Assembly: GCA_948144175.1 (NCBI GenBank)
Contig: CANXME010001990.1
Span: 1,674,001-1,738,000 of the forward strand
Length of the DNA stretch: 64,000 nucleotides
Direction: 5' to 3'
DNA from: Closterium sp. NIES-65
Taxonomy: Eukaryota > Streptophyta > Zygnematophyceae > Desmidiales > Closteriaceae
The position numbers were made by a program, and so were the translations under genes. The notes beneath the pieces were generated by a model. That model had not been told where the DNA came from and made no database searches. It was given only the letters and a program-made list of their open reading frames with translations. Every line of letters begins with the position of its first letter. Within the stretch, counting starts at the first letter, position 1. Positions 169 through 36,817 of the stretch are shown here, piece after piece.

Positions 169-171
169 GAG

Positions 172-1080
172 GAATTTCATGCCATTCAGGCTAAGGAATG
201 CCTCAGCTGTGCTCCAGAGAGTAAAGGATGCGGTGCTGCGGCAAGTGAAGAATGCGGCCTGCTACATAGATGACGTAATCATCTTCAGTCCCGACAGCGA
301 CACGCACGTCAACGACATCGAAGCGACGCTGGCCGCCATCCAAGCAGCAGGGCTGACTTGCCACCCTGGGAAATGTCGGTTCGGACACAGCAGCGTGGCG
401 TACTTGGGGTTTGAGGTGGCAGGAAGGGAGCTGAGCATCCAGAAGGCGACGGTAGAAGTGTTGACAGGGTGGGGCGCCCATAGGACAGAAGCGGATTAAG
501 AGGGCTACTGGGCTTCCTGAATACTACCGCAAGTTTATAGCCGACTTTAGCAAGAGAGCCGCACCGCTGAACAAGCTGCTGAGAGAGGATCAGAAGTGGC
601 AGTGGGAAGAGGCGCAAGAGGGGGCACTGAAGGGGTTGATGGAGGCAGTAAAGGAAGGAGCAGTACTGAAGCTGCCTGACAGAAGGGCGCCATTTGTGCT
701 CTACACGGACTGGAGGAGTGTAGGGATTGGGGCAGTCCTGAGCCAAATGGAAGATGGGCAGAAGAAGGTGGTGGTGTTCACCAGCAGGACATGCAACCCA
801 GCAGAGGCGAACTATTCCTCATACGAGGGCGAGGGGCTGGCAGCGGTGTCGACAGTCGGACACTTCCGAGTCTATCTACAAGGCAGGCACTTCATGTTGG
901 TGACCGACCATCAGCCCTTGATGTGGCTCATGCAGAACCAGACACTGACGGGGCGGAACACGCGGTGGGCAATGAGATTGCAGGAATATGACTTCACCGT
1001 GAAGCACCGCCGCGGGAAGACAATGCAGCACGTGGATGGGTTGTCAAGGAAACCACCAAAGGAGAAGGATGAGCCGGGCA
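172..1080 (+). pseudogene. Gypsy A reverse transcriptase and RNase H block
   Basis: The block starts in the RT palm. The catalytic motif reads YIDDVIIF at about 263-286, followed by the thumb region with CHPGKC and VAYLGFEVAG. RNase H follows: LYTDWRSVGIGAVLSQ near 700-750 and TDHQPLMWL near 903-930, typical of gypsy RNase H. Known family function is copying element RNA into DNA and removing the RNA strand. The block is part of a broken fossil copy and is not expected to act. The counterpart in B is at 6,526-8,160. Confidence 0.88.
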
Positions 1081-1109
1081 CAGGACTAGAGCCACCCGCA
1101 GCAGCACTG

Positions 1110-2470
1110 ACCGCCATGGTCAAGGAGCAGGGGCCAGGAGGAGAACCGACGCGAGGGGCAGCAGACGTCTGGCAGGACGCTGAGACAGTGGCATGGATAA
1201 AGGGAGAGACAGCCGAGGACGAGGGAGCGGGGTCCAGGGCCCGGGCAAGGGGGCAGCACTACAGGTGGTTCCAGGGGCAGGTGCAGCTGAGGACCAAAGA
1301 CGGATGGAAGAGGGTGCCAGAGCCAGGGGAGTGGGAAAGGATCATTGAAGAAGTGCATGAGAAGCTGGGGCACTACGGCGCGCTGCGCACGCAACAGCTG
1401 CTGCAGACAGGATGGTGGTGGGTAGGGATGCGGAAGGAGGTGAAGGAATGGTTGGAGAAGTGTGAGCTCTGCTGCAGGAACAAGGCAACCCTGCTGAAAA
1501 GTCAGGCAGAGCTCCAGCCGCTAGCAATTGTGGAGCTTGGATACAGGTGGTCACTAGATATAGCCGGGGAACTACATGTGAGCATGAGGGGAAGGAGGTA
1601 TATTATGCTCATGATAGAGCACGTGAGCAAGTGGGCAGAGACACGGCCATTGGTGAACAAGACCGCGGCGGCCGTGGCGGAGGCATTTGAGGAGATGGTG
1701 CTGACGAGGTTTGGGGCGTGTGGAGAGGTACTGACTGATCAAGGCACCGAATTTCAAGGGGAGTTCGATGAGCTGCTAGCATCCAACGGCATCCAGCACC
1801 GCACCACCTCCAGGTACCACCCGCAGGCAGATGGCCTAGCAGAGAGGCTGGTGCAGACGGTGAAGAAGGGGTTGCGGGTGTACGGAGAGGCGCACAAGGG
1901 GGACTGGGACAAGAGGCTGGCATGAGTGATGGCGGGGTACAGATTCAGTAAACAGGCCGCACTGAACGACGTGTCCCCCAACTATCTGCTCTTCGGGAAG
2001 CAGCCCATACTACCAGTGGAAGCGCCACGCCTGCTGACAGACAGTGTGTCAGCAAAGACAGCAGAGATGTGGGTAGCACTGGCAGACGCCAGAGCCGTGT
2101 ACCTGAAGAAGATGCTGCCCGCAGCAATGGAGAGCCTGAAGGTGGCTCAGCTGAGAGACATTCACCGATACCAACAAAGGCAGTTGGGAAGGAAGCAGCA
2201 GTAGGATCCTCGCCTGGAGGAAGGACAGGAGGTATACGTGCGGAGGGCAAAACGGGATGGGCTGGACCTGGGGGTGTCCCAACAGAGGTGGACGGTCCGG
2301 GAGGTGAGAGAGTCAGGGGTGCTGGTATTGGAGGATGAGAAGGGGAAGAGATTCATGGACGATGTGACGAATGTGGCGGTTGTGGGCAAGGGCAAGCAGG
2401 AACGGGCTTACCACGGTCCCATGACCAGGGCGAGGACGGCAACAAGGGGTCATAGGAGGGGGCAAGAGTG
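1110..2470 (+). pseudogene. Gypsy A integrase block
   Basis: An N-terminal HHCC zinc-binding region (HEKLGHYG, then CELCCRNK) lies at about 1,355-1,485. The integrase core follows, with SLDIAG near 1,550, LTDQGTEF near 1,735 and GLAERLVQT near 1,830, giving the D, D and E catalytic positions. A C-terminal module with EVYVRRAKRDG and ESGVLVLED lies at about 2,225-2,400 and may be a small target-binding domain; I see no clear chromodomain. The LTR begins a few bases after this block. Fossil copy, broken. Confidence 0.87.
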
Positions 2471-2482
2471 AGTGCATTACAG

Positions 2483-3155
2483 TGTCACATTTGCATGAAT
2501 GTGAAGGGTAAGGTAGTGAGGTAAAAGGGCTGTAAATACTGTAGATACTGTACATAGCGGAACAGAGTTCAACGAGGATGGAAGCCGAAGAGGTATTCGA
2601 CATTTCGCGAACGGAAAAGGGAGTTGGGGAGCTGACGGTTGCCGAGCCTGAGGGTCAGAGGGTTGCATGGGTGAGAGAGGAGCTGGAACTTACGTAAGCA
2701 AGGTGGGGCGGGCTGTAGAAACAGAGGCAGGCTAGGCAGCGGCAGCGGGAAGCAGCAGAGCAGGATGGGAAGGATGGGTGTACGTGTGCATGCTTGTTTG
2801 CTTTCTCTATGTGTGCAGGATAGGTTCGGGGAGCCAGCTGGATCTGGAAGTAACAGTTGGAGGACGAGCAGGCAGGGCAAGGAAGGGTGGCAAGAGGCAT
2901 CACGGTTGTAAGCCTGCGTGAAGCAGTTCATAGCTGCTAGCGTAGGCAGGGATGATGGGACCGTAGTATGGTGGTGGCTTTGCTGGTAGAATAGGTGGAT
3001 TCCTGAATCTACTATCCATTGCTTGTATGTTTCCCTTGTACACGAGAGTTTTTGGTGCAGATCAAGCAAACGGTGAATAGAGGGAGATATGACGAGCAAA
3101 GAGCTGTAGTTAGAGGAGAGTAGGTGAAGTGTGTGACGGAGCAGAGAGCTCATCA
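2483..3155 (+). repeat. Gypsy LTR shared by A (right) and B (left)
   Basis: A 673-bp LTR that begins TGTCACATTT and ends CTCATCA, so it has the usual TG...CA ends. It is about 98% identical by eye to 9,765-10,436 (roughly 13 differences). It directly follows the integrase of A and directly precedes the gag of B. One LTR therefore serves two internal regions, as expected after recombination between neighbouring or tandem copies. No 5-bp target duplication fits its two sides. I could not recognise a tRNA primer-binding site just after position 3,155. Confidence 0.9.
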
Positions 3156-3177
3156 CATACAAGCAATCAGAGAAGGC

Positions 3178-4473
3178 ATGCCCACGAGGTCAGGATTAGA
3201 TTTCGCCGTGAAGGAACCGATAGTAGTGAGTGAGACAATGGAAGGCGATGGAAAGAATGAGGCGGAGGCTCATGGAGCAGCAGGCGCGCACGGCGCGGAA
3301 GGAGGCGGGCTTGGAAGGCCTGGGGGAGCCACGGGCTCTGACACCGCACACGAAGGAACGCGAGAGACGGATGAAGCGGGAGGAGAAGGCGAGGCGGGGA
3401 AGCCAGTTTCTGAAAAGGGTGGCGTCACCGCCGGAGGGAGGACAGGGGGCGATCGACCGTATCAGCGTAGTGCATCATGGCAGGGGTTTGAGGAAGAAGC
3501 AGCTTCGTCGCGATGGCGATACACCATGCTCCCGAAGGTGGAAGTGCTGGAACGATTTTCAGGTGAGGTTCGGCAAGGCCCTTCCCTGAAGAACTACGTG
3601 ATGCAGTTGGAGAACTTGCGAGCGCGGTGGGAGCAAGATCAGCTGGCGGCAGAAGAATTCTTCCGGGGATTGGCGAATACGCTGACAGGAGAAGCGGAAA
3701 CCTACTACCGAATCTGCCGCCACGAGCTGCTGGACAAGGCTGCGCAGGGAAGACCGGGAGAAAGAGATCCGACGAAGCGGTTCTTGGAGATGCTGCGCGA
3801 GCAATTTCCGCTGCAGACACCGAAGCGGGTCGTGGAGTTCAGAGATTTCAAACGAAGAACGGGCGAATCCTTATTGGCGTACTACGGACGTATGGTGGAG
3901 CTCGGGGAGGACATGAACTGTACCGATCAAGGTCGGCTCATCAGTAAATTCCTGAACAGGTTGAACTATGAATTGCAGCGGAATGTGCAGGTGAAAATCT
4001 TCAAATTGGGGGCAGCAGCGATACTGAAAGTCGCGTACGAGACTGTAAAGAGGGTGGAGACGGATCGCAGGCTCTTCGAAGTGGAGCGCACCGTGGAGAG
4101 GTTGGCAGAGAGGCGACGGCCAGCGTGGAGCGCCAGTCCAGTTGAGCACGAGCGGCCACCGAGAGGTCCGGCGGACGTGCGCAAATGCCACAACTGCGGC
4201 CGGAGTGGACACCTGCGACGGGACTGCCGCAACCCACCGGCATGCTTGGTTTGTGGCAAGGAAGATCATTTGAGGAGGGATTGCCCGGAGGCACCTACGT
4301 GCGACAAGTGTGGGAGAAGGGGACATTTGGAGAGAGACTGCTACGCGCGACATGGGGAGCCCAGAGAGAAGGGGGAAGTGGCAGAGATGCGCGCCGAGAT
4401 AGAACGGCTGAGGGCGCAGCTGGAGAATCGAGAAAAGGGGACAGAGAGGAGGCCAGCTATGGTGGCGAGGTAG
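3178..4473 (+). CDS. gag: Gypsy B gag polyprotein
   Basis: Predicted 431-residue gag, taking the ATG at 3,178 just after the LTR as start (the frame is open further upstream, but that part lies inside the LTR). The first ~100 residues are Gly/Glu-rich and low complexity. A capsid-like helical domain follows, from LERFSGE through FLEMLREQFP and FRDFKRRTGESLLAYYGRM to VAYETVKRVE. Three CCHC zinc knuckles of the form CX2CX4HX4C come next: CHNCGRSGHLRRDC, CLVCGKEDHLRRDC and CDKCGRRGHLERDC, at about 4,187-4,334. A short charged coiled-coil candidate (EMRAEIERLRAQLENREK) ends the protein. Gag of this family packages element RNA in cytoplasmic particles. Confidence 0.9.
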   Translation: MPTRSGLDFAVKEPIVVSETMEGDGKNEAEAHGAAGAHGAEGGGLGRPGGATGSDTAHEGTRETDEAGGEGEAGKPVSEKGGVTAGGRTGGDRPYQRSASWQGFEEEAASSRWRYTMLPKVEVLERFSGEVRQGPSLKNYVMQLENLRARWEQDQLAAEEFFRGLANTLTGEAETYYRICRHELLDKAAQGRPGERDPTKRFLEMLREQFPLQTPKRVVEFRDFKRRTGESLLAYYGRMVELGEDMNCTDQGRLISKFLNRLNYELQRNVQVKIFKLGAAAILKVAYETVKRVETDRRLFEVERTVERLAERRRPAWSASPVEHERPPRGPADVRKCHNCGRSGHLRRDCRNPPACLVCGKEDHLRRDCPEAPTCDKCGRRGHLERDCYARHGEPREKGEVAEMRAEIERLRAQLENREKGTERRPAMVAR

Positions 4474-4641
4474 GAGGAAGAAGAAGAAGGAAGCGAAGAG
4501 GAGTTCTGTTTAATGGCGAGACCGGCGAGGGAAAGGGATGAGCCAGGATTGAGGCCAAGGGAGAGGCACCTCAGGCAGAGGACAGAGGGACAACAGCAGT
4601 ACGGGCCGAGGTGACAAGCGGGAGAGGACAGGAGGGGGTTA

Positions 4642-6519
4642 GTGCCTCGTCGGCACCCGCTGGAGAGGCTCAGCTGTGCTGCGTCAGTATTGGTGGCAAA
4701 GAGAGGATATATCATGATAGGGGGGCTGCCGGTGAAGCAGGCCATTATTGATACTGGAGCTCATCCGGTGCTAATAGGAAGGCGACTGGCGGAGCAGTTG
4801 CAGCTGGACAGACCAGAAAGGCAGATAGCTGAAGGACTGCTACTCATGACGACGGAAGGAGGCGGTACAAAGTGGATGCTGAAGACACGGGCGACGGTGG
4901 AGATCATGATCAGGCAAGGAAGCCCCCAGGAATGTTCGGTGAAGCTGCAGTTTGGCGTCTCACCATCAGAGGATTATGACTTGCTGCTAGGAGTGGAGTT
5001 CTTCTACAGCATTGGTTCGACCATCTGCATGTGGGAAGAGCGATTGATGTATCGAGTGACATACAGGGAATACGACGGATGCGTGGCGGAGCTGCCGGTG
5101 CGCTTTATCCGACGCGAACCTAGAGAGGCATATCAAGCTGAGGTGAAGACGGCAGAAGAAGAGCTGGGGCGCCTGAACCGGGAAGTGCTGGAGGAGGAGA
5201 GGAGATACCGAGATTGGCATCGCCAGCGGTGGGGAGAGAGCAGCAGCCTGCGGCAGCTGCACTTGGATAGCAGGGTGTTTCAAAAGCCGATTGTGCTGGT
5301 GGAGTTGTTTGGTGGGATCAGCACGGGGTTAGCAGCGGTGCTGAAGGCAGGGCTGCAAGTGGAAAAGTACATCTACGTGGAGAACGATGACGTTGCGAGC
5401 ACGATATCCTGGCATCACATCAAGAAACTGGAAGAAAGATGCCCCTCCCAGCTGTACGAGGTAGCGGTGGAACGATGGGCAGAATGGATATGCCACCGAG
5501 TGGAGGATGTAAGGGAGGAGACGCTTGCGCACTGGGGGCACATAGACCTGGTGGTGGCGGGCTGGGAATGCCAGGGGATGTCGCGAGCAGGGGAGGGACG
5601 AGGAATGGCAGACCCAAGGAGCGGGCTGTTTCGGGAATTAATCAGGATCCTGAAGCTGATCAAGCGCAAGCAAGGGGAGGTGGCGTATACAGTGGAGAAT
5701 GTGGACACGAGGGACGACCAGAGAGAGGTGGTGAAGCAAGCAGAGGAGGAGATCCGAGGGGAGCTAGGAGCAGGAGTGGCATGGGATGCCACCCGGAATG
5801 GTAGCAGGACGCACAGGACGCGAAGGTATTGGCAGAACGTGGTACCAGAAGCTGTGCTGCAGTATGAGCTGTCGCTGATGGAGCGGCCGAAACCACGACT
5901 GGTGGCGGATATACTGGAACCCGCACGGACCCCAGCGCTGGTGCGACACCCAGATCATGAGACGCAGTACCCATGCAACGAAGTCGGCAAGCCAAGGCAG
6001 GCCTGGCCCATGCTGGTGACTTACAAGAACGCAAAGGGATTTAAGCTGAAGGACGGGCGGGAGGGACCAGGGATGGTGTTTGATTGGTTGAAGGAAGTGT
6101 GGGAAGAGCCGATTGCGCCAGAAGGGGAGCTAGCCATGGGCTTTATGGTAGGCGCCACGGCAAGTGTGGAAGTGACGGTAGATCACAGGAGGAGGGCGCT
6201 GGGGAAGGCCATGGACCTCAACGCCCTACACTGGCTGATAGCGACGATGGACCGACACCTCGAGCGCAACAAATGGGAGCGTAGGAGGGACCATGCGGCA
6301 CGGGCAGATCCGAAGACAGAGGGTGATGAAGTCAAGAAGAGTCAGGCAGAGAAATTCTTGGAGCTCCTAGAGGAGGTGGCATGGGAGATGCGAAGGAGGG
6401 GAGTGCCGCAAGAGAAGCGGATGGAAGGGCTGAACGACCCCACGGGGACACCGGGAAGATATCCGGATCAGGACGAGGACGAGGAGACATGGTGGGAAGG
6501 AGAGCCAGAGATGGATTGA
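4642..6519 (+). CDS. Gypsy B protease plus DNMT3-like methyltransferase
   Basis: An open frame of 625 codons within the pol region. Residues about 25-160 form a retroviral-type aspartic protease: AIIDTGAHPVLIG carries the DTG active site, and DLLLGVEFF matches the second conserved strand. Residues about 160-212 are a charged linker. Residues about 213-540 are a cytosine-5 DNA methyltransferase domain (listed separately). The last ~85 residues are an acidic, Glu/Arg-rich linker leading towards reverse transcriptase. The first codon is not ATG, and such pol regions are usually expressed with gag, so the true start is not claimed. A pol-embedded methyltransferase is highly unusual for gypsy elements. 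Confidence 0.88.
   Translation: MPRRHPLERLSCAASVLVAKRGYIMIGGLPVKQAIIDTGAHPVLIGRRLAEQLQLDRPERQIAEGLLLMTTEGGGTKWMLKTRATVEIMIRQGSPQECSVKLQFGVSPSEDYDLLLGVEFFYSIGSTICMWEERLMYRVTYREYDGCVAELPVRFIRREPREAYQAEVKTAEEELGRLNREVLEEERRYRDWHRQRWGESSSLRQLHLDSRVFQKPIVLVELFGGISTGLAAVLKAGLQVEKYIYVENDDVASTISWHHIKKLEERCPSQLYEVAVERWAEWICHRVEDVREETLAHWGHIDLVVAGWECQGMSRAGEGRGMADPRSGLFRELIRILKLIKRKQGEVAYTVENVDTRDDQREVVKQAEEEIRGELGAGVAWDATRNGSRTHRTRRYWQNVVPEAVLQYELSLMERPKPRLVADILEPARTPALVRHPDHETQYPCNEVGKPRQAWPMLVTYKNAKGFKLKDGREGPGMVFDWLKEVWEEPIAPEGELAMGFMVGATASVEVTVDHRRRALGKAMDLNALHWLIATMDRHLERNKWERRRDHAARADPKTEGDEVKKSQAEKFLELLEEVAWEMRRRGVPQEKRMEGLNDPTGTPGRYPDQDEDEETWWEGEPEMD
5281..6260 (+). other. DNMT3-like cytosine-5 methyltransferase domain in element B
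   Basis: Conserved motifs appear in linear order. Motif I (SAM binding): VELFGGISTGLAAVLKAG at about 5,299-5,352, matching the DNMT3 pattern LFDGIATGL. Motif II-like: YIYVENDD. Motif IV with the Cys-Gln pair: DLVVAGWECQGMS at about 5,548-5,586, followed by DPRSGLFRELIRIL, which parallels the GRLFFEFYRLL stretch of DNMT3. Motif VI: YTVENV near 5,686-5,703. Motif VIII-like: RTHRTRRYWQNVVP near 5,813-5,854, paralleling AHRARYFWGN of DNMT3. Motif X-like: ALGKAMDLNALHWLI near 6,199-6,243. The order I-IV-VI-VIII-X is not permuted, unlike plant DRM enzymes. The known family reaction is transfer of methyl from SAM to cytosine C5; whether this copy ever worked is unknown. Confidence 0.85.
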
Positions 6520-6525
6520 GATTCT

Positions 6526-8160
6526 GTGGAGGAGGAAGATCCCACAGAGAGGTGGATCTCCGACCCGGACGAGGTTCTCCTGGGACCTAGCAGGGCCTAC
6601 ATGGCAAGAGATGCGGCAGAGAAAGGGGGACGGGAGCAGAAATCGGAGGAAGAAGCAGAGGACGCAGGTGGTCGAGAGATGGCAGGACCAGTGACAGCTG
6701 GGGTGACAGGAGACATGGAGAGGAGGATGGAAACGGTCCTACCTGCAGTGGCTGAAACACACTGGGACATAGGAGGCGCCATGGAAGGGACAGCGGCGAT
6801 TAGGTTGGAAGCCGTGTTGCGGCAGCATGCGGCAGCATTCGCACACACAATACAGCAGCTAGGCAAGTGCGTGACCAGTACCATGCGTCTGCCCCTGACC
6901 AGCGAGGTTCCAGTGTACCAGCGGCGGAGGAGGATGAGCCCGCAGGACATCAGCATCTGTACAGAGAAATGTCAGGAGCTGTTAGAAGCAGGCCTGATCA
7001 GACGGTCAACATTGGACTACGCAGCAGCCACGGTCGTAGCAGCACGGATAGACCTGACGGGCACAGCTTTGTCCCGTCGCATGTGCGGGGACTACCGGGG
7101 GCTAAACAAGGTGACAGCAATGGACAGATACCCAATGCCGATGGCATAAGAAATCTTCGACCAGCTGCAAGGAAGCTGAGTCTTCTCCATGCTAGACCTG
7201 CGACAAGGCTTCAACCAGATTCCCATAGCTGAAGAGGACAAAAAAAAGACTGCGTTTCACGGGCCGGATGGACTTTATGAGTGGAACTTCATGCCTTTTG
7301 GTTGAGGAATGCATCAGCAGTGTTTCAGCGAGTGATGGGTGCGGTGCTGCGAGAGGTGAAAGGGGCAGCATGCTACATAGATGACGTGATTATCTTTAGG
7401 CCGGATGCAGAGACACATGTGCGGGACGTAGAGGCGACTCTAGCGGCAATTGAAGTGGCAGGCTTGACCTGTCACCCTGGGAAGTGCTGCTTTGGACACA
7501 CCAGCGTGGCGTATTTGGGGTTCGAGGTGGCAGGGGGGGAGCTTAGCATCCAGAAAGCTAAGGTGGAAGTGTTAGATCGGGTGGAAAGGCCGAAGGACAC
7601 AAGCAGCCTGCGAGCCCTGCTGGGCTTCCTCAACTATTACAAGAAGTTCATTGAGGATTTTAGCAAGAAGGCAGCGCCCCTGGATAAGCTGCTGAGGGAA
7701 GAGCAAAAGTGGCAGTGGGAAGAGGTGCAAGAGCAGGCCCTGCGCGGCTTGATGGAAGCACTCAAGGCCGGGGCAGTACTAAAGCTACCTGATGGGCAGC
7801 AGCCATCTGTCCTGTATACGGACTGGAGCAGCGTAGAAATGGGGGCAGTGCTGAGTCAAATGGAGAGTTGGGTGGAAAAGGTGGTGGCCTTCGCGAGCAG
7901 GACCTGCAGTCCGGCTGAGGCCAACTACTCGTCTTATGAGGGAGAAGGGCTGGCAGCAGTCTGGGCAGTGGGACACTTTCGTGTGTACCTGCAGGGATGG
8001 CACTTCACGTTAGTGACAGACCATCAGCCGCTACTGTGGCTGATGCATAACCAGACACTGACTGGGAGGAACGCGTGCTGGGCCATGAAATTGCAAGAGT
8101 ACGATTTCACGGTGAAGCACAGGCCCAGGAAGACGATGCAGCACGTGGATGTGCTCCCGG
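6526..8160 (+). pseudogene. Gypsy B reverse transcriptase and RNase H block
   Basis: RT fingers are seen with VYQRRRRMSP, CQELLEAGLIRRS and CGDYRGLNKVTAMDRYPMP; the palm carries YIDDVIIF at about 7,374-7,397; the thumb has CHPGKC and AYLGFEVAGG. RNase H shows LYTDWSSVEMGAVLSQ near 7,813 and TDHQPLLWLMHNQTLTG near 8,018. The layout matches A (172-1,080), which lacks the N-terminal part in this window. The block is broken in this copy. It lies directly downstream of the methyltransferase frame, consistent with a single pol region of the order PR-MTase-RT-RH-IN. Confidence 0.9.
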
Positions 8161-8199
8161 CACAGAGCCGGAACCAGAGCAGGAGCCCCCTTCAGCAGC

Positions 8200-9487
8200 A
8201 CTAACCGCCATGGTCAGCGAACGAGGGGCAGGAGGAGGACAGCAGAGGGGTGCAGCCGATGTGTGGCAGGATGAGGAGACCCTGAAGTGGATCAAGGGTG
8301 AGACAGCCAAGGACGGGGGAGCCGGGGCAAGAGCGAGAGCGCGGGGGCAGCATTATAGGTGGTTTCAAGAGCAGGTGCAGCTGCAGACGAAGGATGGGTG
8401 GAAGCGGGTACCGGCGCCGGCAGAGAGGGAAGGGATAATCCGAGAGGTGCACAATAAGCTGGGACATTACGGTCCACTGAGGACGCTGCAGCTGCTACAG
8501 ACGGGCTGGTGGTGGGCAAGGATGCAGAAGGAGGTGAAGGAGTGGGTGGAGGGGTGTGAACTATGCTGCAGGAACAAGGCGAGTCTGCTGAAGAGTCAGG
8601 CCGAGCTACAGCCCCTAGACATCGTGGAGCTGGGGTATCGTTGGTCATTGGACATTGCAGGGGAACTGCCAGTGTCCAGGAGGGGCAGGCGGTACGTGCT
8701 GCTCATGATTGAGCATGTGAGCAAGTAGGCAGAGGCGAGACCATTGGTGGCGACGACGGCAAAAGCGGTGGCTGAGGCCTTCGAGGAGATGGTGCTGACA
8801 AGGTTCGGTGCGTGCGGGGAAGTGTTGACAAACCAAGGCACGGAGTTTCAGGGGGAATTCAAGGAGCTGCTAGCAGAGAATGGCATCCAGCACCGCACCA
8901 CCTCCAGGTATCACCCGCAGAGCGATGAGCTTACAGAGAGGCTTGTGCAGACGGAAAAAAACGGGATCCGCGCCTACAGGGAGGCGAATAAGGGGGACTG
9001 GGACAAGAAGCTAGCCTGGGTGATGGTGGGGTACAGGTTCAGCAAGCAAGCCTCATTGAAGGATGTCTCCCCATACTACCTGCTTTTCGGAAAGCACCCC
9101 ATAATGTCGGTGGATGCACCAAGATTGATACTAGATAGTGTCACAGCAAGGACAGCAGAGAAGTGGGTAGCGCTGGCTGACGCGAGAGCCAGGTACTTGA
9201 AGAAGATGCTGCCGGCAGCAATGGAGAGCCTAAAGGTGGCGCAGCTGCGGGACATCCATCGTTACAAGCAGCGGCAGCTCAACATTATGGTGGGAAGGCA
9301 GGCAGCTGTCGAGGAAGGGCAGGCGGTGTATGTGCGGCGAGCGAAGCGAGATGGGCTAGATGTGGGAGTATCACAGCAGAGGTGGGAGGTGAAGGAGGTT
9401 CGTGAATCGGGAGTACTGGTGCTGGAGGATGCAAAAGGGAAGCGAGTTATGGACCACGTTTACAATGTGGCGCTCGCAGGAAAGTAG
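8200..9487 (+). pseudogene. Gypsy B integrase block
   Basis: The zinc-binding N-terminus has HNKLGHYG and CELCCRNK near 8,450-8,580. The core carries SLDIAGEL near 8,650, LTNQGTEF near 8,825 and ELTERLVQT near 8,930. The C-terminal module has AVYVRRAKRDG and ESGVLVLED, as in A. Gypsy integrases join the finished DNA copy to host chromatin. The block is broken. The 204-bp direct repeat begins about 70 bases after it. Confidence 0.88.
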
Positions 9488-9558
9488 CAAAAGGTGGGAG
9501 GCTACACAAGTCCCATGACCAGGGCGAGGACGGTAGCAGCAGGTCACGGGAGGGGGCA

Positions 9559-9762
9559 GGAGAAGTAGCTATCAGAACACTCTAGGAGAACCAGAGGAAA
9601 GGTTGGCAAGGGTGGTGACAACAGAGAAATAAGGTGAACATGGACAAGGGAAGGAGAAAGGTGCCAAAAAGGGGGGAAGAGAGGCAGGGGGCACAACACA
9701 CGGAAGAGTGAGAAGTAGGAGAAGGAGAGTGAGGAGAGGAGGGGGAGGGTAGGTATCCGACA
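9559..9762 (+). repeat. 204-bp direct repeat, left copy
   Basis: A purine-rich 204-bp stretch starting GGAGAAGTAG and ending GTAGGTATCCGACA. It recurs at 10,439-10,642 at about 94-95% identity by eye, on the other side of the right LTR of B. Element A has nothing like it between its integrase and LTR. It is far too long to be a target-site duplication. Confidence 0.9.
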
Positions 9763-9764
9763 GC

Positions 9765-10436
9765 TATCACATTTGCATGAATGTGAAGGGTAAGGTAGTG
9801 AGGTAAAAGGGCTGTAAATACTGTAGATACTGTACATAGCGGAACAGAGTTCAACAAGGATGGAAGCCGAAGAGGCATTCGACATTTCGCGAACGGAAAA
9901 GGGAGTTGGGGAGCTGACGGTTGCTGAGCCTGAGGGTCAGAGGGTTGCATGGGTGAGAGAGGAGCTGGAACTTACGTAAGCAAGGTGGGGCGGGTTGTAG
10001 AAACAGAGGCAGGCTAGGCAGCGGCAGCGGGAAGCAGCAAGCAGGATGGGAAGGATGGGTGTACGTGTGCATGCTTGTTTGCTTTCTCTATGTGTGCAGG
10101 ATAGGTTCGGGGAGCCAGCTGGATCTGGAAGTAACAGCTGGAGGACGAGCAGGCAGGGCAAGGAAGGGTGGCAAGAGGCATCACGGTTGTAAGCCTGCGT
10201 GAAGCAGTTCATAGCTGCTAGCGTAGGCAGGGATGATGGGACCGTAGTATGGTGGTGGCTTTGCTGGTAGAATAGGTGGATTCCTGAATCTACTATCCAT
10301 TGCTTGTATGTTTCCCTTGTACACGAGAGTTTTTGCTGCAGATCGAGCAAACGGTGAATAGAGGGAGATATGAGAAGCAAAGAGCTGTAGTAAGAGGAGA
10401 GTAGGTGAAGTGTGTGACGGAGGAGAGAGCTCATCA
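9765..10436 (+). repeat. Gypsy B right LTR
   Basis: 672-bp partner of the LTR at 2,483-3,155, matched end to end at about 98% identity. It ends CTCATCA like its partner. It sits between two copies of a 204-bp direct repeat. Five-base duplications do not match between the outer flanks of the two LTRs, which agrees with recombination having moved or exchanged ends. Confidence 0.9.
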
Positions 10437-10438
10437 TT

Positions 10439-10642
10439 GGAGAAGTAGATATTAGAACACTCCAGGAGAACCAGAGGCAAGGTTGGCAAAGGTGGTGACA
10501 ACAGAGAAATAAGGTGAACATGGACAAGGGAAGGAGAAAGGTGCCGAGAAGGGGGGAAGAGAGGCAGGGGGCACAACACACGGAAGAGTGAGAAGTTGGA
10601 GAAGGAGAGTGAGGAGAGGAGGGGGAGGGTAGGTATCCGACA
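10439..10642 (+). repeat. 204-bp direct repeat, right copy
   Basis: Second copy of the repeat at 9,559-9,762, beginning two bases after the right LTR of B. It runs without a visible break into further purine-rich sequence to about 10,860, so it may be the edge of a longer 3' segment of another gypsy copy of the same family. Confidence 0.9.
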
Positions 10643-10930
10643 ACAGAGAGAATCAGCAAGGGAGGAGAAGAGAGACCAAGGACAGAGGTGCAGAGGCAAG
10701 AAGTCTGGGATTCAGTGGGGCTGAGGGGAGTAGGGGAGGTCAGGACAGGAAGGGTGAGAGCGGGGAAGAGGTGAGAAAGAATAGAGATGAGCAGAGGAGA
10801 AGAGGGAGTAGCAGAAGGGCAGGAAGGAGGAGGTGAGTTTCGATTAGCACTGCCACGCTGGAGGAGTTGCGACTATCAACTAGAAAAATCTCCAAAAACT
10901 GTGCAAAGGCGATGCGGGAACCTCTTCCCA
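10643..10930. other. Purine-rich stretch with no recognised gene
   Basis: Rich in A and G with GGGGAGTAGGGGAGG-like runs up to about 10,830, then more mixed sequence. I see no coding similarity. It may be the untranslated 3' region of a further gypsy copy, continuing from the 204-bp repeat, before the old copia element C begins. This is inference only. Confidence 0.4.
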
Positions 10931-14066: not shown

Positions 14067-14950
14067 CTAGACAGGCGGTGGACACTCTAAGGGAGGAGCC
14101 GGAATAGCAGAGGGCGGAAGACCAAGAACCTGCTCAAGGAGCGGAACGAAGTACGGCCCCGGCGGCTCAGCACCACCAGCACCAGAAGGGACAGCACTAG
14201 CACCCCAAACGACAGCACTCGCGCCAGCAGCACCCCCAGCTCCAGCAGTGCCAACTCTAGTACCCTCAGAGGCACCAACACCAGAGGCACCCTCAGTACC
14301 AACACCCCCAGCAGCTCCAGCTCCAGCCGGACCACCAGAAGATGCAGCGGGACCAGCTCCAGCACCCTCAGTAGCACCGACGCCTCCAGCACCACTAGCT
14401 CCAGTACGAGAAGCACCCGCAGGCCGAGCAGCTCCTGTACTCCCAGTACGAACACCTCCGGGACCCGCGGCACTAGCACCCTCAGCAGCAACAGAACCTC
14501 CAGCACCCGCAGCACCCCCAGCTCCAGCAGCTCGCCTCCAGCGCCGGGAAAACCACTCACGCAGCTCCTGTGGAGAGAGGAGCTCCCGCCGAGACGAAGC
14601 ACCCGAAGAACCTCCAGGCCCAGCACCGCCAGACGCCACACGAGTAGGTCCAGGACCCTCAGACTCCGCACCCCCAGACGCAGCACCCCCAGGCTCAGCA
14701 CCCTCAGACGCAGCACCCCCAGGCGTAGTACCCCCAGGCTCAGCACCCCCAGGCGCAGCACCCCCAGAGACAGCACCCTCAGGCTCAGCACCCCCAGAGT
14801 CAGCACCCCCAGGCTCTGCACCCCCAGAGTCACCACCCCCAGACCCAGCACCCGCAGGCTCAGCACCCTTAGCAACACCCGAGTCAACAGCTACCTCGAC
14901 AGAGTTGACAGCGTCTACCTGAGACATACCTGAGGGGGCAGGACCCTGAG
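14067..14950 (-). repeat. Element D Gly/Ala-rich integrase-RT spacer repeats
   Basis: A coding minisatellite of 15-bp and 30-bp units giving runs such as GGAEPGGADSGGAEPE on the element strand. It holds the motif LSPQELREWFSRRW near 14,540-14,580. The spacer separates integrase from RT in all four members of this family. Units without stop codons keep several frames open, so overlapping reading frames here mean nothing. Confidence 0.85.
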
Positions 14951-14989
14951 GGGGGAGGGGGTCTACCGGAGGGAGAGCAGGCGTAAGGA

Positions 14990-16010
14990 AGAGCGGCGGG
15001 GGGGGGGGGAGGGACGCACTGCGGTAGGGGAAGAGACGGTAGTAGGGAACCGACTCGTCAAACGTGACGTCATGGGAGGACAGAACATGGTGCAAGGTGG
15101 GGTGGTAGAACTGCCAGCCCGGCGCGTCAGTGTGGAAGCCAAGGAAGATGCAGGGAACAGCACGAGGGGACAGCTTGTCCGCAGACAAGTCGCGGACAAA
15201 CGCCCGAGATCCCCAGACACGGAACGCAGACGCATCACCAACCTTCCCCGTCCACAGCAAAGCAGGGGAGGTCTCCGGCATGGAGACTTGGGGCTGAAGG
15301 TTGATCTGATGCGCCGCGTACCGAACCGCAAACGGCCACAGAAAATGGGGGGCAGCCGCATGGACCATGGAGGTACAAGCGACGTCCATGACCATGCCAA
15401 TGCGGCGCTCAGCAATCCCATTTTGCTGCGGAGAGTCCGGAAGCGTGAAGGTCTGGCGGATGCCTCGTGCACGACAGAAGGGTCGCTAAAGGTCCGAGGA
15501 GAACTCTCCGCCTCTGTCAGAGTGCAGCCGTAGAACAGGAAAGTCCGAGCTGAAACTCTCTCCGAGCTGGAGACGAGCCGCGCGGATCCAGGCAATCAGC
15601 ACCTCAGTGACCTCACCCTTGCTGCGCAAGGGGAAGACCGCGGTGTAACGCGAGTAGTCGTCAACCACCAGCAGGAAGTAACGCTCGTGACCCTTTCCAC
15701 GAACGCGGGCTGGGCCCCACACGTCCATGTGAAGTGTCTGCAGCGGAGCCTCTGTCGGAGGAAACATGGAGGAGTGAGGAGCAGCGCGCTGCCGCCCCTC
15801 GACGCAGGGAACGCAGGTGGGGGCAGGCCCCGGAGGAAGGGGAGGGAGGGACCGGGGGAGACCAGAGACAAGGACACGGGAGGCCATGCCTCGGAGACGA
15901 TGCAGGGAGGGGTGACCAAGTCGGTGGTGCCAGAGGAGAGTCTGGTGAGACTGGAGACGGCACGAGCAGGGGGCAGACTCAAGATCAGACCCGGCCGCTG
16001 CAGCAAACAC
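14990..16010 (-). pseudogene. Element D integrase block with GAG-pre-integrase
   Basis: Reverse strand. The zinc-binding pre-integrase segment has LLWHHRLGHPSLHRLRGMA. The core has LHMDVWGPARVRGKGHERYF, VVDDYSRYTAVFPLRSKGEV, LRLHSDRGGEFSSD and a NGIAERRIGMV-type glutamate region. The C-terminal part has VRYAAHQINLQP, SPALLWTGKVGDASAFRVWG and LSADKLSPRAVPCIFLGF, usual for copia integrases. Broken fossil copy. Confidence 0.9.
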
Positions 16011-33142: not shown

Positions 33143-36100
33143 ATGGATGTGTGGGGCCCAGCCCCCGTCCGTGGGCAGGGTCACGAGCGCTACTTCCTGC
33201 TGGTGGTTGACGACTACTCGCGTTACACCACAGTCCTCCCCTTGCGCAGCAAGGGTGCGGTCACTGAGGTGCTGATCGACTGGATCCGCGAGGCTCGTCT
33301 CCAGCTCAGGAAGAGCTTCGGCTCGGACTTTCCTGTTCTGCGTCTGCACTCTGACAGAGGAGGAGAGTTCTCTTCTCGCCTTCTGCGGGACTACTGTCGT
33401 GCACGGGGGATTCGCCAGACCTTCACGCTTCCGGACTCACCACAGCAAAATGGGATTGCTGAGCGCCGCATTGGCATGGTCATGGATGTCGCTCGTACGT
33501 CCATGATGCATGCGGCTGCCCCCCATTTTCCGTGGCCGTTTGCGGTGAGGTACGCGGCGCATCAGCTCAACCTTCACCCCCGGGTCTCTCGGCCTGCAAT
33601 GTCCCCAGCCTTGCTGTGGACGGGGAAGGTTGGCGATGCGTCTGTGTTCCGTGTCTGGGGATCTCGGGCGTTTGTCCGCGACTTGTCTGCGGACAAGCTG
33701 TCCCCTCGTGATGCTCCCTGTGTCTTCCTTGGCTTCCCCACTGACGCCCCAGGGTGGCAGTTTTACCACCCCTCCTCTCGTCGTGTTCTGTCCTCCCAGG
33801 ACGTCACGTTCGACGAGTCAGTCCCCTTCTACCGTCTCTTCCCCTACCGCACTCCTTCCCTCCCCCCTCCCCCGGACTTCCTTGTGCCGGTTCCCCCCCC
33901 GGTAGACCCCCTCCCCCCTCAGGTTCCTGCCCCCTCAGGTGTGTCCCAGGTAGACGCCGTTGACCCGGTCGAGGTTACTGGTGACTCTGGTGCTGCTGCG
34001 GGTGCTGAGCCTGGGGGTGCTGACTCTGGGGGTGCTGTGCGCGGGGGTGCTGAGCCTGGGGGTGCTACTGCTGGGGGTGCTGGGCCTGAGGGTGCTACTA
34101 CGGAGGGTGCGGAGCCTGGGGGTGCTGAGCCGGGGGTTGCTGTGCCTGGAGGTGCTGGGTCTGGGGGTGCTGGGTCGGGAGCTGCTGAGCCTGGGGGTGC
34201 TGAGCTGGGAGCTGCTGAGCCTGGGGGTGCTGCGTCTGGAGCTGCTGAGCCTGGGGTTTCTCCTGCTGCTGCGTCTCGCCGGGAGCCCCTCTCTCCACAG
34301 GAGCTGCGCGAGTGGTTCGCTCGCCGCTGGAGGCGTGCTGCTGAGTCTGGAGGTGCTGCTGGAGCTGGAGCTGGAGCTTCTTCGACCGTCGAGGGTGCGG
34401 GTGCTGCCGGTCCCGGAGCTGCTGGACCTGAGGGTCCTCCTGGAGCTGGGGGTGCTGAGGGCGTTGGTGCTGAGCCTACTGCTGTTGGTCCTGCCGCTGG
34501 AGGTGTGGGTGGCGCTGGTGCTGTCGCTGAGGGTGCTGGTGCTGTCCCTACTGGGTCTAGAGCTGCCGCGCTGCCTCGGCCGTACTTCGTTCCGCTCCTG
34601 CAACAGGTTCTTGGTCTTTCTCCTCTAGTAGAGGGTCCACCGCCTGTCCAGTCGCAGTCCCTGCTGGAGCCTTCCTCTCCACTACCTGCTCCCTCTCCTT
34701 ACACTGGTCCTACTGGAGGTCTTGCTGAGCGTCGTGAGCCTGCGTCTTGTCCCGCGTCGCCTGTTCGTGCTGCTCGCGCTAGTGGTCGCAGTTCGCGTCA
34801 GCGTCCTCCTCCTGTCCCTGGCACGCACTGGATATCTTTGCGTCCGTCCACTGCTCCTCTGCGTGCCCCTTTGCCTTCTCCTCCTGAGTCCTCTCTTCCT
34901 GCGCTTGCCGACCCTGAGTCGGACTCTCTTTGTGCTGCCAGTCCTACTGTCACGCGTCTGCTTGCTACTGTCGTCACTGACCCCTCTTTTGAGTCCACTG
35001 CTGCGTCTGCTCTAGTCGCTGAGCTCGTCGACTTTGCTGCTCGCTGTCGTCTCGACTACGCTGCTAGTCTTGTTGCTGAGTCTGCGTCTGTCTGTCCTCC
35101 GTCCGTCGGGGGTGAGTGTGCTCTTGGCACGGACGTCCTAGAGGACAGGCAGGAGGAGTTACAGTGTCTAGCGACTGCTTCACCTCATCTCGCGTCTGTA
35201 CTGCTAGCCCCTGAGGGAGACCCGGATGCACCAGACATCCCGACTCCGCGCTCTTACGCGGAGGTCGTAGAGGGTCCCTACTCCTCTCAGTGGCAGGCAG
35301 CTATGGATGCAGAGATGGCTTCCTGGAAGTCCACAGGCACCTACGTTGACGCGGTTCCCCCTCCTGGGGCGAACATCGTCAGTGGCATGTGGATCTTCAG
35401 GGTGAAGCGGCCGCCGGGCTCTCCACCTGTCTTCAAGGCACGGTACGTTGCTCGTGGCTTCAGTCAGCGGCAGGGAGTTGCCTACTTTCAGACCTTCTCT
35501 CCCACCCCGAAGATGACTACTCTTCGGGTGCTGCTGCACATAGCCGCTCAGCGCGACTACGAGCTTCACTCTCTTGACTTCAGCACTGCGTTCTTGCAGG
35601 GTAGCCTGCACGAGAAGATCTGGCTTCGCCGTCCACCTGGCTTCACTGGGACTTTCCCTCCTGGCACCCAGTGGAGCCTCCGACGTCCAGTCTACGGTCT
35701 CCGCCAGGCACCGCGTGAGTGGCACGACACACTGAGGACTACGCTTGCGGCTCTTGGGTTTGCTCCTTCTACTGCTGACCCATCGCTGTTTCTTCGCACC
35801 GACACTTCCCTGTCGCCGCTCTACATCCTCGTGTACGTCGACGACTTAGTCTTTGCCACAGCGGACACTGCTGGACTCGCCTACGTGAAGTCCAAGCTGC
35901 TGAAGAGACACACGTGCACAGACCTGGGTGAACTGCGCAGCTACCTTGGCTTGCAGATCACTCGGGACAGAGCACGCCGCACCATTACCTTGACTCAGTC
36001 ACACATGGTGCAGCAGGTCCTTCAGCACTTCGGCTTCACGTACTCCTCGCCTCAGGCCACTCCTCTGCCTACTCGCCACTCACTCTCAGCTCTGCCTTCG

Positions 36101-36817
36101 GATGAGTCCGTAGAGTCGACTGGTCCGTATGCAGAGCTTGTTGGCTGCCTCATGTACCTGATAACCTGCACACGACCTGACCTTGCATACCCTCTGAGCA
36201 TTCTTGCACGCTATGTTGCTCCTGGGAGACACAGACCGGAGCACATAGCTGCAGCGAAGAGGGTATTGCGCTACCTGTGCAGTACGTCGGGCATGGGGCT
36301 AGTGCTTGGAGGGCGGAGTCCAGTGGTCCTTACCGGCCACGCGGACGCTTCTTGGGCTGACGACCAGGCTACGCAGCGGTCGTCACAGGGTTACACCTTC
36401 AGCCTTGGTTTCGGCTCTGTCTCGTGGCGGTCTACTCGCTGGTCTTTCGTTCTCGGCTCCAGTTGTGAGGCTGAGATCTACGCCGGGGCCATGGCTGCAC
36501 AGGAGCTTCGCTGGCTCACCTATTTGCTGACTGACCTTGGAGAGCCGCCTCGTTCTCCTCCAGTGCTGTATGTAGACAACAAGGCCATGCTGGCCTTGTG
36601 TCGAGAGCAGCGCTTGGAGCACAGAACGAAGCACATTGCTCTCCGCTACTTCCTTGCTCGTGAGCTGCAGCAGCGTGGTCAGTTGCGACTTGCGTACGTG
36701 GCCTCTGAGGCCAACACTGCTGATGTGTTCACCAAGGCACTCGCGCCTTGTGACCATCAGCGCGTTTGCACCCAGCTGGGTCTTGTACCTGTCTTGCCTC
36801 ACTTGCTCTCCTCTTGA
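33143..36817 (+). CDS. pol: Element E integrase, reverse transcriptase, RNase H
   Basis: A 1,224-codon open frame, the longest in the window. Integrase core, residues ~1-180: MDVWGPAP, LRLHSDRGGEFS and QQNGIAERR supply the D, D and E positions; GKVGDASVFRVWG and PCVFLGF follow. Residues ~275-400 are the Gly/Ala-rich spacer with LSPQELREWFARRWRRAA. A Pro/Ser-rich linker leads to RT at about residue 715: MDAEMASWKSTGTYVDAVPP, FKARYVARGFSQRQGV, STAFLQGSL and catalytic YILVYVDDLVFATA near residue 895. RNase H starts near residue 1,065 with TGHADASWADDQATQRSSQ and ends with ANTADVFTKALAPCDHQR. Order IN-RT-RH fixes Ty1/copia. Confidence 0.93.
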   Translation: MDVWGPAPVRGQGHERYFLLVVDDYSRYTTVLPLRSKGAVTEVLIDWIREARLQLRKSFGSDFPVLRLHSDRGGEFSSRLLRDYCRARGIRQTFTLPDSPQQNGIAERRIGMVMDVARTSMMHAAAPHFPWPFAVRYAAHQLNLHPRVSRPAMSPALLWTGKVGDASVFRVWGSRAFVRDLSADKLSPRDAPCVFLGFPTDAPGWQFYHPSSRRVLSSQDVTFDESVPFYRLFPYRTPSLPPPPDFLVPVPPPVDPLPPQVPAPSGVSQVDAVDPVEVTGDSGAAAGAEPGGADSGGAVRGGAEPGGATAGGAGPEGATTEGAEPGGAEPGVAVPGGAGSGGAGSGAAEPGGAELGAAEPGGAASGAAEPGVSPAAASRREPLSPQELREWFARRWRRAAESGGAAGAGAGASSTVEGAGAAGPGAAGPEGPPGAGGAEGVGAEPTAVGPAAGGVGGAGAVAEGAGAVPTGSRAAALPRPYFVPLLQQVLGLSPLVEGPPPVQSQSLLEPSSPLPAPSPYTGPTGGLAERREPASCPASPVRAARASGRSSRQRPPPVPGTHWISLRPSTAPLRAPLPSPPESSLPALADPESDSLCAASPTVTRLLATVVTDPSFESTAASALVAELVDFAARCRLDYAASLVAESASVCPPSVGGECALGTDVLEDRQEELQCLATASPHLASVLLAPEGDPDAPDIPTPRSYAEVVEGPYSSQWQAAMDAEMASWKSTGTYVDAVPPPGANIVSGMWIFRVKRPPGSPPVFKARYVARGFSQRQGVAYFQTFSPTPKMTTLRVLLHIAAQRDYELHSLDFSTAFLQGSLHEKIWLRRPPGFTGTFPPGTQWSLRRPVYGLRQAPREWHDTLRTTLAALGFAPSTADPSLFLRTDTSLSPLYILVYVDDLVFATADTAGLAYVKSKLLKRHTCTDLGELRSYLGLQITRDRARRTITLTQSHMVQQVLQHFGFTYSSPQATPLPTRHSLSALPSDESVESTGPYAELVGCLMYLITCTRPDLAYPLSILARYVAPGRHRPEHIAAAKRVLRYLCSTSGMGLVLGGRSPVVLTGHADASWADDQATQRSSQGYTFSLGFGSVSWRSTRWSFVLGSSCEAEIYAGAMAAQELRWLTYLLTDLGEPPRSPPVLYVDNKAMLALCREQRLEHRTKHIALRYFLARELQQRGQLRLAYVASEANTADVFTKALAPCDHQRVCTQLGLVPVLPHLLSS
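33985..34330 (+). repeat. Element E coding minisatellite in the IN-RT spacer
   Basis: Repeats of GCTGAGCCTGGGGGT and close variants (15 bp, often paired to 30 bp) encode GGAEPGGADSGGA-like runs. The unit length is a multiple of three, so gains and losses keep frame. The repeat is followed by the REWFA motif. Confidence 0.9.

Follow-up and report, generated by a model that had tools for sequence, protein, structure and literature searches.

Does a retrotransposon of a green alga carry a DNA methyltransferase of its own, and what could such an enzyme do for the element? The question is raised by a stretch of 64,000 nucleotides of Closterium sp. NIES-65 (assembly GCA_948144175.1, contig CANXME010001990.1, positions 1,674,001 to 1,738,000 of the forward strand), the whole of which we call the window. 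Positions 2483-10642 of the window are a Ty3/gypsy retrotransposon whose domains, found with Pfam in the open reading frames (ORFs) of 3124-9487, follow the order Gag, protease (PR), DNA methyltransferase (DNMT), reverse transcriptase (RT), RNase H (RH) and integrase (IN). We are confident that this is a decayed copy of a Ty3/gypsy element bearing a DNMT3-like C5-cytosine methyltransferase in its Gag-Pol, an enzyme which, as we propose, would methylate the element's own cDNA inside the particle. The family is real and conserved, the copy in the window is broken, and the host range, the insertion signature and a variant of the catalytic motif go beyond what we found in print.

The methyltransferase and the state of the window copy

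The first-pass annotation, made from the letters of the window, had claimed that a gypsy element carries a DNMT3-like methyltransferase, a single frame holding an aspartic protease followed by the motifs of a C5 methyltransferase, with RT downstream. All of this agrees with what we found. The ORF 4642-6519 (protein P0001, 625 amino acids) encodes the protease and then the methyltransferase, which matches PF00145 significantly (E 1.5e-8, 34.9 bits for a cut-off of 22). It contains VELFGGISTG, WECQ, ENV, HRTRR and a C-terminal stretch, which we take to be motifs I, IV, VI and VIII and a motif resembling X; their order is unrearranged, as in the DNMT3 family.

Modelled with AlphaFold in unaltered form, the ORF reaches a mean pLDDT (predicted local distance difference test) of 82.1, and the top match of this model in Foldseek is DNMT3A (E 6.4e-19, TM-score 0.82 by target length). 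When a profile of 39 relatives was compared with the PDB, the best score was again that of DNMT3A (78.5 bits), followed by DNMT3B (67), 4onj (35.8), HhaI (35.7), DRM2 (22.8) and DNMT2 (21); no chain named DNMT1 was returned by this search at E 0.001. The chain 4onj, named in the PDB listing merely "DNA methyltransferase", is presumably a DRM of tobacco. An enzyme of the DRM or DNMT2 type was considered and rejected, as DRM2 and DNMT2 score far below DNMT3A. The methyltransferase of the window belongs with DNMT3 by its closest fold and by its profile match.

The positions of the other domains are given in Table 1. The two protease profiles score 23.0 and 22.9 bits for cut-offs of 24.3 and 28.2, and the protease region of the AlphaFold model is rich in strands, with a pLDDT mostly above 75. 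The stretch 6526-7149 has no Pfam match by itself and was taken as the start of RT on the grounds of its motifs; the RT of a relative (P0092) has Ty3 as its nearest solved structure. No phage-integrase (tyrosine recombinase) domain was found in the six ORFs of the element which were scanned, a DDE integrase being present instead.

The limits of the ORF 4642-6519 are not those of a gene. Frame 1 spans Gag (with ATG 3178 as its likely start codon), PR, DNMT and the start of RT, and it is interrupted by stops at 4471, which separates Gag from PR in this copy, and at 4612, 6517 and 7147, while RT carries on in other frames. Moreover, the DNMT domain of the window deviates at 13 of the 220 positions which are invariant across 13 other stop-free domains of the host genome; these other domains show 0 to 2 deviations each, except L074, which shows 11. 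Because of the stops, of the frame changes in RT and of these deviations, the window copy looks inactive, and it is decayed although its A repeats, described below, are about 98% alike. The observed/expected ratio of CpG is 0.70 in the element and 0.76 in the window, a difference too small for an argument.

Table 1. Features of the DNMT-bearing retrotransposon, in positions of the window
Feature	Position	Strand	Evidence or remark
Target site duplication ACAG, left	2479..2482	+	identical to 10643-10646
Repeat A1, left element end (TGTCA...)	2483..3155	+	98.2% identical to A2 over 671 bp
Gag-like ORF	3124..4473	+	three CCHC zinc knuckles; PF00098 E 2.3e-12
Aspartic protease domain (DTGA)	4714..5004	+	PF13975/PF13650 E 1.3e-4, below curated cut-offs
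C5-cytosine methyltransferase, DNMT3-like	5272..6252	+	PF00145, DNMT3A profile and Foldseek matches
Reverse transcriptase and RNase H, frame-shifted here	6526..8204	+	PF00078, PF17917, PF17919 within 7281-8204
Integrase, H2C2 zinc finger and DDE core, two ORFs	8075..9487	+	PF17921 E 1e-16; PF00665 E 9.2e-5 (below cut-off)
Repeat B1	9559..9762	+	96.1% identical to B2
Dinucleotide GC, following the end-type CA of B1 and preceding A2	9763..9764	+	part of the joined-ends junction
Repeat A2	9765..10436	+	self-BLAST and edge mapping
Repeat B2, right element end (...CCGACA)	10439..10642	+	self-BLAST and edge mapping
Target site duplication ACAG, right	10643..10646	+	identical to 2479-2482

Split repeats, insertion signature and copies in the host genome

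The repeats of the window element are ordered A1, coding region, B1, A2, B2, which is the arrangement of DIRS elements, and there is no plain pair of long terminal repeats (LTRs). A comparison of the window with itself by BLAST aligned 2485-3155 with 9767-10436 (A, 98.2% identity) and 9559-9762 with 10439-10642 (B, 96.1%). The outermost bases, TGTCA and CGACA, form TG...CA ends with ACAG on either side; the probability of a 4-bp match between the flanks of fixed ends is 0.0042 in the sequence of the window.

Pieces likely to bear the ends of nine other copies were fetched from the same genome, and five of these copies (C1577, C1755, C1191, C802 and C1834) have the same A-coding-B-A-B layout. 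In the first three, the A repeats (663-664 bp) are 99.5-100% identical and the B repeats (180-190 bp) 98.9-100%; we regard these copies as recent insertions because of the identity of their A repeats. C802 (A 99.5%, B 97.7%) and C1834 (A 99.0%, B 97.8%) belong to other subfamilies, with DNMTs respectively 56% and 60% identical to that of the window. Target duplications of 4 bp (ACGG, TGCG, CATC and CCAG) flank four of these five copies with both ends; C1577 sits in tandem repeats, without a target duplication, and for C1834 the same 4 bp would also suit another, less natural end. Integrase-type ends with a short duplication are therefore found in the window copy and in four of the five others. 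The two identical LTRs of a Ty3/gypsy element are found in none of the six, all of which are laid out as A-coding-B-A-B, and an ordinary LTR pair is ruled out by this mapping. Where B1 meets A2, the palindrome GACAGCTGTC occurs once in each of the five other copies. It reads as the right element end, GC and the left element end joined together (GACA-GC-TGTC at its centre), and the junction of the window copy differs from it by one change.

The host genome which we searched comprises 874 Mb in 2400 contigs. PF00145 gave at least 123 scored matches among 902 candidates, and the DNMT domain of the window at least 122 among 1440 candidates, its own included; some matches are identical in score and may lie on duplicated contigs. 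So many matches rule out that the domain was added by chance to a single copy, a possibility which the first-pass annotation had itself raised. A host gene caught by a nearby insertion is ruled out as well, since the domain order recurs in relatives and in further copies. In other copies the match contains no stop and is part of an open frame, which reaches up to 2234 codons. We examined 30 DNMT loci, that of the window included: in a test with exact strings in one frame, 23 of them had an RT motif downstream and 22 had DTGA upstream, and the domain is free of stops in 14, the window's among them. These 14 domains form 91 pairs, 29 of which were usable (Ks between 0.05 and 1.5, the other 62 being outside this range or undefined). 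The median ratio of nonsynonymous to synonymous substitution rates (Ka/Ks) was 0.063 (range 0.031-0.102), over pairs which are not independent and nine of which include the decayed copy of the window. The DNMT is under purifying selection. A sister gypsy family devoid of DNMT may exist in the same genome.

By its description, KnitGypsy-Dnmt3 of Klebsormidium nitens resembles the window family (de Mendoza et al. 2018, PMC5890265; here and below, statements on published papers refer to the parts of their text available to us). It is a gypsy element of a streptophyte alga with a Dnmt3-class enzyme in its Pol; its repeats are arranged as in DIRS, A-coding-B-A-B (legends of Fig. 1e and Fig. 4c), and it was called Gypsy by its domain composition despite these repeats. 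Purifying selection acts on the DNMT in both (Ka/Ks < 0.2 in KnitGypsy-Dnmt3, for the median given above). The two differ by their host lineage, and neither 4-bp target duplications nor a glutamate before the catalytic cysteine of motif IV (see the next section), both present in the window family, is mentioned for KnitGypsy-Dnmt3 in the available text. We conclude that the window family is the same kind of element, which fits a relative of a known case. The first-pass annotation had hesitated between this and a new family, and had set the coding region between a pair of LTRs: the former fits, novelty at the level of the kind is not supported, and terminal repeats do exist, but in the split layout.

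Other systems described or mentioned in the same paper (PMC5890265) can be compared as well. SymbioDIRS-Dnmt3 of Symbiodinium shares the DNMT3-class domain in Pol and the A-coding-B-A-B layout, but it is a DIRS element with a tyrosine recombinase, whereas a DDE integrase and target duplications of 4 bp mark the window family. SymbioLINE-Dnmt is also a retrotransposon with a C5 methyltransferase; it differs in being a long interspersed nuclear element (LINE), with a DNMT of an orphan class which mostly occupies an ORF of its own upstream. DIRS/PAT elements with a Dam-like enzyme share a special repeat layout and an accessory methyltransferase, but this enzyme methylates adenine at N6 and is structurally unrelated to C5 DNMTs, and the elements use a tyrosine recombinase.

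Relatives, position in Pol and catalytic motif

Three protein searches, one of which gave the best 120 of 132 matches, yielded 216 proteins, the window copy included. In the first search, 37 of the 40 matches came from Closterium (NIES-53, 54, 64, 65, 68 and Naga37s-1), the best one with 78% identity over 67% of the query; taken by themselves, these matches point to a likely host in or near Closterium. Further named hosts among the matches listed are Marchantia polymorpha, Calypogeia fissa and Sphagnum (P0058, P0085) and, on the chlorophyte side, Monoraphidium neglectum, Haematococcus lacustris and Cymbomonas tetramitiformis; the remaining relatives are transcriptome or environmental sequences without the name of an organism. 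No protein match listed carries the name of K. nitens, many of them being nameless.

Two architectures occur among the relatives. The named streptophytes, and with them some of the environmental sequences, have PR-DNMT-RT-RH-IN; the named chlorophytes have RT-RH-DNMT-IN, as do many other sequences. The DNMT lies between PR and IN in the observed order in 204 of the 205 proteins for which a further element domain was recognised, the sole exception being the gene model P0083; it stands alone in 11 of the 216. A PHD finger, perhaps a chromatin reader for the choice of target, is present in 95 of the 123 RNase H-side proteins; in P0092 and P0095 it lies behind the integrase. Some environmental proteins of this side (P0039, P0119, P0165, P0198 and P0207) have a G-patch domain, which in P0039 lies behind the DNMT.

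For alignment we kept the 169 domains whose DNMT match covers at least 250 profile positions. A tree of 74 domains was drawn from them, 14 near-duplicates being left out, 18 domains chosen and 22 of the RNase H side taken at random; on its 66 labelled rows (8 are unlabelled), the position of the DNMT in Pol changes once. In a tree of 46 rows, whose outgroups are 14 viral methyltransferases (13 of them found by motif) and one DNMT3A fragment, the 31 gypsy DNMT domains form one clade (bootstrap 99, Shimodaira-Hasegawa-like approximate likelihood ratio test 93). Sphagnum rows are absent from both trees. A further domain tree comprised 56 of 100 proteins, those with one long DNMT match.

To our knowledge, the residue which precedes the catalytic cysteine is a proline in nearly all C5 methyltransferases. 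This proline is missing from motif IV of the window, where a glutamate precedes the cysteine (E-C instead of P-C). E-C is found at all 30 DNMT loci examined in the host genome and in all 15 long domains which make up the Closterium set, 14 from Closterium proteins and one from the window, and P-C is found in all seven long liverwort domains; a Calypogeia protein outside these seven (P0036) has E, and two Closterium proteins too short for the set of 169 (P0010 and P0014) have S. In the alignment, the protease-side domains have P in 29 cases and E in 12 (n=41), the RNase H-side domains E in 91, P in 25, A in 2 and S in 1 (n=119), and those without an assigned position E in 6 and P in 3 (n=9). 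The catalytic cysteine is present in 168 of the 169 domains (one gap), as are the glutamate of ENV and the second arginine of motif VIII, each in 168.

An opinion paper mentions Gypsy or DIRS elements which bear a methylase, placing them in green algae and charophytes, and states that land plants such as tracheophytes lack them (PMC6338049); the available text of PMC8226300 and PMC6453930 holds nothing on retrotransposon-borne DNMTs. In the open-licence literature we found no paper joining Closterium, retrotransposon and DNA methyltransferase, and among the open-licence matches listed none tells of the wider spread (chlorophytes, liverworts, split repeats) in its title or in the opening of its abstract. 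What lies beyond the print we found is the Closterium host; the relatives in liverworts, Sphagnum and chlorophytes; the single clade formed by the domains placed in trees, within which the DNMT takes two positions in Pol; the E-C motif; and the integrase-type insertion of an element with split repeats.

Proposed role, rival explanations and neighbourhood

Since both architectures set the DNMT between PR and IN of the polyprotein, it should enter the particle with RT and encounter the fresh cDNA, an argument which the 2018 authors made likewise for DIRS elements (PMC5890265). Within the particle, the protease would release the DNMT alongside RT, and the DNMT would then methylate the new double-stranded cDNA before the integrase inserts it. 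Methylation could shield the cDNA, or make the new copy resemble resident methylated DNA; the first-pass annotation had suggested that the element might methylate its own DNA or hide its copies in silent chromatin. The presence of the domain, its order and conservation, the recent copies and the insertion signature are the observed basis from which we infer this methylation and its benefit. As to the repeats, the B1-GC-A2 unit looks like joined element ends, which suggests that the ends are restored from an internal copy: by analogy with DIRS/PAT elements, this unit would probably template the restoration of both ends in replication, and yet the element would insert by means of a DDE integrase. 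Restoration of the ends from an internal copy has been proposed for DIRS/PAT elements.

A wider reading, which strikes us as rather unlikely, would make all DNMT gypsies of the green lineage one lineage issued from one capture, not private to Klebsormidium, and older than the split between chlorophytes and streptophytes or spread across it. The DNMT and the joined-ends layout of split repeats would then form one replication module, in which a cDNA with joined ends receives its methylation inside the particle before an ordinary integrase inserts it, and E-C would be an adaptation to that job. The trees which bear on one capture are those of the DNMT domain; the 2018 authors concluded that the lineage of K. 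nitens had captured its enzyme independently (PMC5890265).

Three points weigh against the proposal that the enzyme methylates the cDNA of a split-repeat element. The KnitGypsy DNMT produced no methylation in yeast, a result which its authors judged inconclusive (PMC5890265); the E-C motif might lower or change the activity; and for four of the nine other copies (C244, C2050, C1175 and C1450) the pieces fetched yielded no A/B repeats. The E-C motif, with the frequencies reported above, could even mark a domain which is no longer a DNA methylase and which binds or modifies RNA or plays a structural part. We find this quite improbable, as the catalytic cysteine, the glutamate of ENV and the arginine of motif VIII are each kept in all domains of the alignment but one, and as P-C and E-C both occur among related domains. 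The four copies without repeats, together with the decay of the window copy and its position against a related element (171-2468), could also be taken to mean that A-coding-B-A-B is an accident of this copy, due to a partial LTR deletion or a nested insertion, in a family with ordinary LTRs. The same layout in five other copies, two of them from other subfamilies, speaks strongly against an accident, as do the target duplications which four of the five have of their own and the identical layout of KnitGypsy-Dnmt3 (PMC5890265), and we give this explanation almost no credit.

The DNMT might instead act mainly on the DNA of the host, of competitors or of invading viruses, as an enzyme of defence or niche control and not as a self-methylase. 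Its conservation would fit such a role, which for viruses is in print as a hypothesis (PMC6338049); but as its place in the polyprotein is between PR and IN whichever the architecture, the enzyme would travel with RT and cDNA, and we hold a target of this kind to be unlikely. Its origin is a separate matter. The family profile gives the methyltransferase of Xanthomonas phage XbC2 72.7 bits, near the score of DNMT3A; the window protein alone scores higher with XbC2 (46.4 bits) than with DNMT3A (32.9); and in the 46-row tree XbC2 joins the DNMT3A fragment (93/85, long branch) beside the gypsy clade. A descent from a phage or bacterial methyltransferase thus deserves some attention, but it seems doubtful to us, as DNMT3A is the best solved match both by profile and by fold, and as the tree which brings XbC2 close has a single DNMT3A fragment and 14 viral sequences only, nearly all found by motif. 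Descent from a eukaryotic DNMT3 is no more than likely, because the nearest outgroup consists of DNMT3A and of XbC2, the latter on a long branch.

In the PDB, the XbC2 methyltransferase (L001, 1510-2394) matches HhaI and DNMT3B with about equal scores. A scan of viral contigs with the DNMT alignment gave 47 loci with the single pattern AGW[PE]CQ[GD]x[ST], whose plus-strand ORFs of at least 120 amino acids contained no recognisable RT; with the RT alignment, 83 stretches of viral contigs matched, with no relative among them. The contig CADCWO010000201.1 (L049), filed as a metagenome-assembled genome of a Synechococcales cyanobacterium, encodes a protein related to that of the PR-DNMT ORF, with 34% identity across residues 35-564 of the query; this contig is probably a eukaryotic contamination.

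The many genome matches, the recent insertions, the strong selection and the relatives in chlorophytes, liverworts and Sphagnum suggest that DNMT-carrying retrotransposons are more than an occasional curiosity of the green lineage. As host silencing usually uses the same mark, these elements lend themselves naturally to the question whether an element benefits from self-methylation, and the combination of split repeats with integrase-type insertion raises a question of replication which is open to direct test.

Finally, the DNMT element is inserted directly behind another one: window 171-2468, which shares 75% identity with 7283-9562, covers RT to integrase of a related gypsy element, whose upstream part lies beyond the start of the window. 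Farther along, 33143-36817 is an ORF of 1224 amino acids, open throughout, which by eye resembles an integrase-RT polyprotein of the Copia type, and similar pieces recur in the window. An array with a period of 15 bp (14574-14903) lies inside the minus-strand ORF 14067-15395.

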